A stretch of DNA of 46,154 bases, taken from the NCBI GenBank assembly GCA_003247225.1, contig QKAK01000155.1, positions 1 to 46,154 on the forward strand, written 5' to 3'. Both the position numbers and the translations under genes were made by a program. This document shows, in pieces, positions 2,435 to 6,305 of the stretch. Each line of letters opens with the position of its first letter. Position 1 is the stretch's first letter. The notes beneath the pieces are model-generated. The model saw only the letters and a program-made list of their open reading frames with translations, ran no database searches and was not told the origin of the DNA. Origin of the DNA: Spirochaetota bacterium. GTDB lineage: Bacteria > Spirochaetota > Spirochaetia > Treponematales > UBA12059.

Positions 2435-2462
2435 TTGACACGTCGCTCCGGCATCGTATACG
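2435..2462 (+). promoter_or_regulatory. Putative sigma70 promoter for the cas2-like/prfB operon
   Basis: TTGACA (2435-2440) - 16 nt - TATACG (2457-2462); ATG at 2470. Confidence 0.6.
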
Positions 2463-2469
2463 ATGGCTC

Positions 2470-2784
2470 ATGTTCGTGTCAGTCGTTTGCGACCTCGGCG
2501 GCGAGGATTCCAGGGCCGCCGTATACGCGCTCCTGCCTCAGTACGGCTTCGAGAAGGTCCAGCGGGCCTGCTTCGAGAGCGTGCGCGCCACCGAGAAGCA
2601 GCTCGTCGCGCTCAAGCGCGACATCGACAAGGTGACGGACTACTACGACACCGTCCGCATCTACCAATACCCCGTCGAGGGCCGGCTCGCCATCTCGATC
2701 CTCAAGGAGAATCGATGGAAGAGGGTCGTCGTCAGGGCGCCGGCCGAGAAGGCCCCCGAACGCCCGAGGAGAGACCATGCTTGA
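2470..2784 (+). CDS. Stand-alone Cas2-family (ferredoxin-fold nuclease-like) protein
   Basis: MFVSVVCDLGGEDSRAAVYALLPQYGFEKVQRACFESVRATEKQLVALKRDIDKVTDYYDTVRIYQY: Cas2-like beta1-Asp (VVCDL), YGF.kVQ..CFE, and late DtvRiY strand; no other cas genes nearby. Confidence 0.7.
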   Translation: MFVSVVCDLGGEDSRAAVYALLPQYGFEKVQRACFESVRATEKQLVALKRDIDKVTDYYDTVRIYQYPVEGRLAISILKENRWKRVVVRAPAEKAPERPRRDHA

Positions 2785-3914
2785 AGACTACATGGCGCCG
2801 ATAGCGCAGCTCAAGAAAGAAGTCCTTGAAATCTGGGGGCGTCTTTGACGCCGCTACCATACGCTCCAAGATAGAGACGAAGGAGTCCCAGTCGTCCGAG
2901 CCCGGCTTCTGGAACGACCAGAAGCGCTCCGAGCGCATCATGGGCGAGCTCAAGGTGCTGCGCAACCGGCTCGAGACCTGGGAGGACATCAAGCGCTCGA
3001 CCGACGCGCTCGACGAGATCTACGCGATGGCGATCGAGGAGGGCGAGGGCTCCCTCGAGGAGGAGATAGCCTCGTCGCTCGCCAGCGTCCGCGACCGTTT
3101 CGACAAGGCGGTGACGCTCGAGCTGATGACCGGCGAGGCCGACCGCACCGGCGTCTTCCTGTCGATCCACGCGGGCTCGGGCGGCACCGAAGCCTGCGAC
3201 TGGGCGGGCATGCTGATGCGCATGTACACCCGCTGGGCCGAGCGCCGCGGCTTCAAGTACGAGATCGTCGACATGCTCGAGGCCGAGGGCGGCATCAAGA
3301 GCGTGACGATGGAGATCGACGGCGCCTACGCCTACGGCCACCTGCGCGGCGAGTCCGGCGTGCACCGCCTGGTGCGCATCAGCCCCTTCGACGCCAACGC
3401 GCGCAGGCATACGAGCTTCGCGAGCGTGTCGGCCTTCCCGGTGATAGACGACAGCATCGACGTGACGGTCAAGCCCGACGAGATCCGCATCGACACCTAC
3501 CGCGCCGGCGGCGCCGGCGGCCAGAAGGTCAATAAGACCGACTCGGCGGTGCGCATCACCCACCTCGCCACCGGCATCGTCGTCACCTGCCAGAACGAGC
3601 GCAGCCAGCACAAGAACAAGGACGTGGCGATGCAGGTGCTCAAGAGCCGGCTCTACGACCTGTACCGCAAGGAGAAGGACAAGGAGAACGAGAAGTACGT
3701 CGGCGACAAGAAGGAGATAGCCTGGGGCTCGCAGATACGTTCCTACGTGTTCCAGCCCTATACGATGGTCAAGGACCACAGGACCAAGTTCTTCGTCGGC
3801 AACATCCAGGGCGTCATGGACGGGGACCTCGACCCGTTCATCGACTCGTACCTCCACTTCCTATGGAAGGGCGGCACCGTCCAGGCCGACGGCGACGACG
3901 ACGACGAGGTATAG
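2777..3914 (+). CDS. prfB: Peptide chain release factor 2, with programmed +1 frameshift at codon 23/24
   Basis: ATG at 2777 opens MLEDYMAPIAQLKKEVLEIWGRL-TGA(2846-2848); +1 frame continues DAATIRSKIETKESQ... with SPF and YRAGGAGGQKVNKTDS; GGGGG-CGT-CTT-TGA-C frameshift cassette. Confidence 0.97.
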
Positions 3915-3921
3915 GGCGCCG

Positions 3922-5412
3922 ATGAGTAGGCCGTCGGCCCGCTGGCTCGCCTGTATCGTAGCGGTCTCCGCGACGCTCGCGCCGTCGGCGAGCGCGTCGG
4001 CCCAGGCCGCGTCCGGGACGGCCGTATCGTCATCCGCGCTGACGATAGGCTGGGCCGAGCTCGCCGTCCCGGGCGGCGACGCATCCTCCGGCGCCGGCGC
4101 CGAGTACCGCGACGCCGCGGTGCTCGTCCCCCGCCAGCTCATGCGCGCCCTGGCCTTCGCCGACCTGCGCTACCCGAGCGAAGAGGAAGCCGCCGCGACC
4201 GCTACGCGGGCCGCCCTGGGAGCCGAGGAGAAGGCGAGGAAGGCCGTGTCCGACGCTAGGGCCAAGCGCGACCTGGCGGCCCTGGCGGTACGCGATCCGG
4301 CTAAGCGCGCGAGGGACGTGGCCGAGGCCGAGGCGGCCGTCAGGAAGGCCGAGGCCGCCCTCGAGCTGCTCCTTACTGCCGATCCGACCGACTCGCGGCC
4401 TGACGCCGCCGCTTCCGCCGATATCCGTAGCCTATCGATCGCGTTATCTTCGGCCAATTCCGGCGACGCGCTCCTTCCCGCGGCCTTGGATCCCGCCTCG
4501 CTCTGCAAGGAAAAGAAGCTCGACATGCTCGTCTACGGGTCGCTGCGCGCGCGCGGCGCTTACCTGGCCCTCGACCTATCGCTCTACGTGGCCTCGCTCG
4601 GCCGGTCGGTATGGTCGGAGACCCGCTACGCCTACGCCGACGGGCTCGGGCAGGCGGTCGCGGCCTTCACGAGGCCGCTCGCCGAGGCGGTCATCGGCCG
4701 GCCCTACGCCCGGGTCGGCTTCAGGCTCGAGCCGCCCGACGCCGACCTCTACGTCGACGGCCAGGCGGTCTCCGATGGCTCCCTGCTGTACTTCGAGCCG
4801 GGCCCGCACGAGGCCGTCGCCAAGGCGACCGGTTTCGAGCGAGCCGCCCGCCCGTTCGACGTCGCGCTCGGGGAGGACCTGTTCGTCGACCTGAGCCTCG
4901 ACGCCCAGGCCTCCGTCGGCTGGACCCTGTCCACGGAGCCGGAGGGCGCCGCCGTCCACCTGGACGGGATACGCCTCGGCTACGCGCCGCAGGCGCTGCC
5001 CGGCTCGGCCTTCCCGAGGCTGATACGCGTGAGCATGCCCGGCTTCGAACCCGTCCAGCTCGTCCACAGGCCGGAGGCCCTGATCGACGACCTGACCGTG
5101 GTCCTCGTGCCGGCCGACGGGCTGTCCTTCGACGAGCGCTACGATAGGCGCAAGGACGCCTTCTACCGATCGCTCGGCTGGTTCGTCTCGTCGCTGCCGC
5201 TGACCGTGCTGTCCGGCGGCCTGTTCCAGACCTACTACGCGACGGCGCAGGCCTATTACGAGTCGGGCGAGACCGACGCGGATGTAATCGAACGGCTCGA
5301 CTCGGCGTTCTATACTTCGCAGACGGTCTTCTGGGCCTCGGCCGCGGTCACGGCGGGCTGCGCCGTCTGGGCCGTCGTCCGTCTCGTCGCGTACATCGAG
5401 ATAACCCTGTAG
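3922..5412 (+). CDS. Secreted/membrane protein with PEGA domains
   Basis: N-terminal signal-like segment; VGFRLEPPDADLYVDGQAV and WTLSTEPEGAAVHLDGIRLGYAP are PEGA-like; hydrophobic C-terminal segments. Confidence 0.75.
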   Translation: MSRPSARWLACIVAVSATLAPSASASAQAASGTAVSSSALTIGWAELAVPGGDASSGAGAEYRDAAVLVPRQLMRALAFADLRYPSEEEAAATATRAALGAEEKARKAVSDARAKRDLAALAVRDPAKRARDVAEAEAAVRKAEAALELLLTADPTDSRPDAAASADIRSLSIALSSANSGDALLPAALDPASLCKEKKLDMLVYGSLRARGAYLALDLSLYVASLGRSVWSETRYAYADGLGQAVAAFTRPLAEAVIGRPYARVGFRLEPPDADLYVDGQAVSDGSLLYFEPGPHEAVAKATGFERAARPFDVALGEDLFVDLSLDAQASVGWTLSTEPEGAAVHLDGIRLGYAPQALPGSAFPRLIRVSMPGFEPVQLVHRPEALIDDLTVVLVPADGLSFDERYDRRKDAFYRSLGWFVSSLPLTVLSGGLFQTYYATAQAYYESGETDADVIERLDSAFYTSQTVFWASAAVTAGCAVWAVVRLVAYIEITL

Positions 5413-5432: not shown

Positions 5433-6305
5433 ATGAGGTTCGGCGATCGTATACGCAAGCTCCTCGGCATGGAGGTCGTCGGCGACGACGACTGGGACGA
5501 CCTGGCCGACCTGCTCGTCGAGGGCGATCTCGGCGCGGCCTTCGCCGACGAGACGGTCGAGCGGCTCAAGGAGGCCTGCGCCGAGGCCGGCGTCAGGAAC
5601 GGCGACGGGGCCAGGCGCCTGCTCAAGGACGTGCTCAGGCCCTACGCCAAGGCCGTGGACATCAGGCCGATACCCGGCGGGCGCAACGTCGTGATGATGC
5701 TCGGCGTGAACGGCGTCGGCAAGACGACGAGCTCGGCGAAGCTGGCCAAGCTATGGCTAGGTCAGGGTCTGGCGTCGAAGGCGATACTGGCGGCCGGCGA
5801 CACCTTCCGCGCCGCGGCGATCGAGCAGCTCAAGGCCCACGGCGATAGGCTCGGCGTCAGGGTCGTCGCCCAGGAACGCGGCTCGGACTCAGGCGCCGTG
5901 CTCTACGACGCGCTCGAGGCGGCCGCGGCGGACGGCTCCGACCTGGTGATCGCCGATACGGCCGGCCGCATGCATACCAAGGCCAACCTGATCAAGGAGC
6001 TCGAGAAGATGGACAAGATCGTCGCCGCCAAGGCCGATCCGTCCAGGTATAGGCGCCTCCTCGTCGTCGACGCGACGACCGGACAGAACGCGCTCAGGCA
6101 GGCCGAGGCCTTCTCCGCGGCCGTTACGATAGACGGGCTCGTGCTGACCAAGTACGACTCGAGCGCCAGGGGCGGCGTCGCCCTCGCGGTGGCCAGGCAG
6201 CTCGGCATACCGACCGCCTTCGTCTGCGACGGCGAACGATACGAGGACATCCGCGCCTTCGACCCGGAAACCTACCTCGACCAGTTCCTGGGGCTCGAGC
6301 TTTGA
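5433..6305 (+). CDS. ftsY: Signal recognition particle receptor FtsY
   Basis: SRP GTPase motifs GVNGVGKTTSSAKLA, DTFRAAA, DTAGR, TKYD; SD AAGGAGA. Confidence 0.97.
   Translation: MRFGDRIRKLLGMEVVGDDDWDDLADLLVEGDLGAAFADETVERLKEACAEAGVRNGDGARRLLKDVLRPYAKAVDIRPIPGGRNVVMMLGVNGVGKTTSSAKLAKLWLGQGLASKAILAAGDTFRAAAIEQLKAHGDRLGVRVVAQERGSDSGAVLYDALEAAAADGSDLVIADTAGRMHTKANLIKELEKMDKIVAAKADPSRYRRLLVVDATTGQNALRQAEAFSAAVTIDGLVLTKYDSSARGGVALAVARQLGIPTAFVCDGERYEDIRAFDPETYLDQFLGLEL

Follow-up and report, generated by a model that had tools for sequence, protein, structure and literature searches.

To our knowledge, few branches of the Cas2 family that stand outside CRISPR have been described. Cas2 is thought to be derived from stand-alone nucleases or to share ancestry with them (PMC3150331). 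The relatives in the Cas2/VapD group include RNases and DNases with a paired Asp, for which cleavage of RNA or DNA was reported in vitro (PMC10491678, PMC11980593), while nuclease activity is unreported for some Cas2 proteins (PMC10491678). The closest described case to the protein analyzed here is BPSL1038, from a Burkholderia sub-family of Cas2/VapD nucleases, which is likewise a chromosomal Cas2-fold protein without CRISPR (PMC10491678). Leaderless transcripts are common in Leptospira, with about 440 having leaders under 10 nt (PMC5243855), and the translation of leaderless mRNA in E. coli is influenced by stress and IF3 (PMC8138138). A search of the open-access literature (titles, abstracts, and passages) found no description of the family reported below. 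In the same literature, no paper was found that joined Cas2 with prfB, or the term leaderless with Treponema start sites.

We analyzed a 46,154-nt stretch of DNA from a Spirochaetota bacterium (contig QKAK01000155.1, hereafter the window), in which a small gene, designated cas2L, lies directly ahead of prfB (Table 1). With regard to identity and architecture, we are highly confident that cas2L encodes a CRISPR-independent Cas2-fold protein and is the first cistron of a cluster continuing with prfB, a PEGA-like gene, and ftsY.

Table 1. Features of the cas2L locus, in window positions
Feature	Position	Strand	Description
Putative sigma70-type promoter	2435..2464	+	TTGACA 2435-2440, TATACGAT 2457-2464; ends 5-7 nt before ATG
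cas2L	2470..2784	+	ATG to TGA, 104 aa; CRISPR-independent Cas2-fold protein; first cistron, predicted to be leaderless
prfB (RF2)	2777..3914	+	Second cistron; ATG 2777; Shine-Dalgarno-like AGGAG upstream
Third gene	3922..5412	+	Exported-looking, PEGA-like repeats by eye; most long loci have a homologue at this position
ftsY	5433..6305	+	Signal recognition particle receptor GTPase by sequence; cluster end; homologues in the same place where DNA suffices

The initial annotation had recognized a Cas2-like pattern in the 104-aa product, and profile searches and structure prediction confirmed it. The product scored 36.8 bits against Pfam CRISPR_Cas2 (cut-off 23.8) and 22.5 bits against NCBIfam TIGR01573, slightly below the cut-off of 24.5, and was matched by several PADLOC Cas2 models. 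The AlphaFold2 model (pLDDT 92) was composed of strand 2-8, helix 12-24, strands 28-31 and 34-37, helix 42-55, and strands 61-69, 72-79, and 82-87. When this model was compared with the PDB using Foldseek, the top matches were Cas2 proteins (E about 1e-3 to 1e-2, probability 1.00), and the best free-standing Cas2 structures gave TM values of about 0.51-0.58 by query and 0.60-0.71 by target. The match to VapD was lower (0.46 and 0.56), and thus the structural check against Cas2 and VapD that had been suggested placed Cas2 nearest. Viral proteins gave weak matches only.

The profile alignment of cas2L with canonical Cas2 spans residues 1-68. The conserved YQYP and KWRR segments are located at the end of this alignable part or beyond it, and the predicted C-terminal strands (72-79 and 82-87) appear to bear conserved residues of their own. 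Seven residues (E36, K49, D60, R63, Q66, P68, and W83) were invariant across 93 family sequences, and position 8 was acidic in all 93 (88 D, 5 E). Glu at position 8 was observed in L053, L134, L139, L108, and L111, which represent about three lineages. Since Glu is tolerated at this position, a requirement for structure or charge fits as well as catalysis does.

The cas2L family profile matched 92 of 393 Spirochaetota genomes. One of these matches was the canonical Cas2 of a cas1-cas2 locus, which reached only 26.9 bits, whereas the other 91 scored 77.8-163 bits. The dN/dS values of close pairs were mostly 0.03-0.10, with one pair at 0.22; strong purifying selection acts on cas2L. The low dN/dS and the 92 profile matches together indicate that cas2L is a real gene. 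An orthologue was present in 39 of 59 relatives, and the profile found a single copy in the window's own genome (95% complete, 224 contigs); the Pfam Cas2 six-frame search missed the window's cas2L itself and is therefore no proof that other Cas2 genes are absent. Scanning 84,980 species with short exact cas2L patterns, the profile being applied within the phylum, gave hits in Spirochaetota only, and searches of plasmid, phage, and viral-contig records gave no relatives. When canonical spirochaete Cas2 sequences were included in a tree, the cas2L family formed a separate clade (support 100/100). The cas2L tree broadly tracks taxonomic families, its inner forks being weak owing to the few columns, and vertical inheritance within Spirochaetota is the best reading. 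These results bear on whether Cas2L is a VapD-type, toxin-like nuclease whose antitoxin has gone unrecognised. The superfamily is shared and VapD toxins were reported as RNases (PMC11980593), but no small partner gene lies between the promoter and prfB, the Foldseek scores bring Cas2L nearer to Cas2 than to VapD, and the broadly taxonomic tree is joined by no plasmid or phage relatives, which makes a toxin very unlikely.

The cas2L family is independent of CRISPR. All 30 canonical cas2 genes had a cas1-like ORF no more than 1.5 kb away, compared with 0 cas2L-family loci. Among the 59 relatives, Cas1 was present in 17 of the 39 with cas2L and in 10 of the 20 without it, showing no association. 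Cas1 (PF01867) was not found in the 95%-complete genome, nor were CRISPR-like repeats found within the window, in agreement with the earlier statement that the window holds neither cas1 nor a repeat-spacer array. The accompanying suggestion of a Cas2-type fold outside CRISPR is supported by the lack of cas1 near family loci and by the separate clade. Because linkage to cas1 was tested and was not found, the cas2L product is not a CRISPR Cas2, although by sequence it still belongs to the Cas2 family. A CRISPR-Cas adaptation subunit, either a remnant or shared, would account for the Cas2 sequence signature; with no family locus near cas1, no link to the presence of Cas1, and a clade apart, such an origin is extremely improbable. 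Elsewhere in the window, a 60-nt direct repeat is present as an imperfect pair (72%) at 545-670, with a spacing of 66.

To describe the linkage with prfB, we compared the cas2L loci of class Spirochaetia. prfB was the next gene on the same strand in 83 of the 84 judgeable loci; two further contigs ended before it, and in one locus, L090, cas2L was detached. This linkage had been set beforehand as a test of the initial annotation, and it is kept through the whole class. The upstream neighbour of cas2L varies between the loci while the association with prfB stays, and the order after cas2L is prfB, the PEGA-like gene, and ftsY. Distances of cas2L and prfB showed a moderate correlation (Spearman 0.49, from pairs that are not independent). 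In the window, the cas2L TGA (2782-2784) overlaps the prfB start (ATG 2777-2779) by 8 nt, as had been described. However, the two genes overlap in just 5 of 81 loci (median gap 22 nt), and thus the 8-nt overlap itself is not a conserved feature. A Shine-Dalgarno-like stretch preceded prfB in all 23 cas2L-bearing starts inspected, and together with the rarity of the overlap this argues against the coupling through overlap that had been proposed. prfB carries a programmed +1 frameshift site, CTT TGA C (2843-2849), after TGGGGGCGT, with TGGGGGC at 2834-2840. The frameshift motif was present in 82 of 83 cas2L-bearing loci and in 24 of 24 cas2L-lacking loci, and within the class its presence therefore does not follow that of cas2L. 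It was not seen near the N-terminus of the seven prfB genes from another Spirochaetota class.

The promoter of the window's cas2L can be read with a spacing of N16 to TATACG or N18 to TACGAT, and no Shine-Dalgarno sequence precedes the ATG. A promoter scan of the window found this match, compared with 0.1 expected in shuffles. The arrangement TTGACA-N16-18-TAnnnT ending 4-9 nt before the ATG, without Shine-Dalgarno, was found in 77 of 86 class loci, which, being from related genomes, are non-independent, versus 1 of 191 control ORFs (at least 200 aa, from the AT-richer loci of the same set). Similarly, TTGAC was found at -50 to -26 in 74 of the same 86 related loci. Among 1720 shuffles it occurred in 36, and among 389 control ORFs, a set that includes some spurious ones, in 2. 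With initiation about 7 nt past the -10 box, the mRNA would begin at the AUG, and the conserved geometry predicts a leaderless cas2L mRNA. The linkage to prfB pointed out in the initial annotation held class-wide; the conserved promoter and the reach of the family beyond the class had been missed. The cas2L promoter shares sequence with a promoter-like site on the minus strand (2453-2482), which might drive the divergent ABC-F-like gene (704-2338).

A number of relatives lack cas2L and keep prfB, indicating that cas2L is not needed for RF2. In cas2L-lacking genomes of the same order, at least 9 of 24 prfB starts, belonging to two families, had TAnnnT 6-7 nt before the ATG. prfB itself looked leaderless in L151-L154, L157, L159-L161, and L163, with a clear -35 in L151, L152, L160, and L163 (ATGACA, ATGACA, TTTACA, and TTGACA, respectively). 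By eye, the cas2L-lacking L155, L156, and L158 appear to retain the promoter, with a leader after it. In the other class, the prfB of L201, L204, and L205 (3/7) was leaderless-looking by eye, with TTGACA-N17-TAnnnT ending 6-7 nt before the ATG. Judging from these upstream regions, the promoter may be an old property of prfB, ahead of which cas2L would have been placed. The same starts can be read as signs of a regulator, in which RF2 expression is tuned, in concert with the frameshift, either by the leaderless cistron or by its protein binding its own 5' end, so that the fold binds rather than cuts. The conserved leaderless geometry of cas2L points the same way as the leaderless-looking prfB starts in the two families and in the other class. 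This regulatory reading is nonetheless unlikely, given that the first cas2L codons vary at their third positions and that RF2 is already under frameshift control with or without cas2L.

In the seven members from the other class, cas2L is solitary among differing neighbours, and most of the seven have a Shine-Dalgarno-like stretch. The cas2L family, and not its linkage to prfB, reaches beyond class Spirochaetia. L090 (G386), from a Treponema relative, is the sole class member with cas2L detached from prfB; here cas2L has a Shine-Dalgarno sequence, lacks the leaderless-type promoter, and adjoins an NYN-domain-like ORF. The solitary members, the detached copy, and the many relatives that retain prfB without cas2L are all consistent with the main rival to our interpretation, according to which Cas2L has a separate role with nucleic acid and its position is held by a good promoter, with rearrangement harming the supply of RF2. 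A conserved cas2L-prfB order can reflect the sharing of such a promoter. Against promoter sharing, prfB stays next to cas2L in 83 of 84 judgeable loci despite the differing upstream gene, and the leaderless start is retained as well. We regard it as a serious contender, at somewhat less than even odds.

The explanation that we prefer, with a probability of roughly 0.55, is that Cas2L is produced from a leaderless first cistron and acts as an RNA-binding homodimer in dosage with RF2. The strong sigma70-type promoter would give a transcript beginning at the cas2L AUG or a few nt from it, and Cas2L would be translated from this leaderless mRNA. RF2 would be made from this transcript too, by way of the prfB Shine-Dalgarno sequence and the +1 frameshift. 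Cas2L, as a putative homodimeric RNA-binding protein, is probably a weak endoribonuclease that would use the paired acidic residue 8. It would act on mRNA or rRNA near the ribosome, with its dosage kept with RF2 and a possible tie to termination. An RNA-binding or RNA-cutting homodimer is favoured because the Cas2/VapD relatives include nucleases with a paired Asp and because leaderless translation in E. coli is affected by stress and IF3. The mechanistic part of this explanation is tentative, at well below even odds. It is doubtful that a domesticated Cas2 serves as a translation-associated RNA-binder or RNase co-made with RF2, with the leaderless start and frameshift jointly tuning termination; if true, this would be a new link from a CRISPR-type fold to translation termination.

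These findings suggest a CRISPR-type fold with a housekeeping role near protein synthesis. The cas2L branch is old, strongly selected, and fixed beside a core translation gene, and its cellular role can thus be tested by gene removal. The conserved, predicted leaderless start of the RF2 operon also provides a case for asking what purpose leaderless translation serves.

Compared with known systems, Cas2L shares the ferredoxin-like fold, the Asp at the end of strand 1, and the YG..VQ..FE and D..R.Y signatures with canonical CRISPR Cas2 (PF09827, TIGR01573, COG1343), which also provides its best Foldseek matches. Unlike canonical Cas2, it has no cas1 nearby and no array in the window, forms its own clade, and is found in a prfB neighbourhood; its C-terminal strands bear family-specific YQYP and KWRR segments. 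VapD of the VapXD-type toxin-antitoxin shares the superfamily and the acidic residue (PMC11980593), whereas cas2L has no adjacent antitoxin gene and lies first behind the promoter with prfB directly next. Similarity to VapD is lower, and the Cas2L model lacks the extra helices that VapD has in the loops following strand 1 and helix 2 (PMC11980593). The acidic catalytic residue of Cas2/VapD nucleases at the end of strand 1 is present in Cas2L, where 88 of 93 sequences have D and the other 5 have E. In contrast to the Leptospira leaderless mRNAs, the predicted leaderless geometry of cas2L is conserved at a single locus across the class, and no mapping of its transcripts was found. Cas2L lacks both the D(X20)SST motif of BPSL1038, its residues 29-31 being KVQ, and the C-terminal helix, the Cas2L model ending in strands; phylum and context also differ. 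Cas2L belongs with the non-CRISPR Cas2/VapD proteins and differs from the described BPSL1038.
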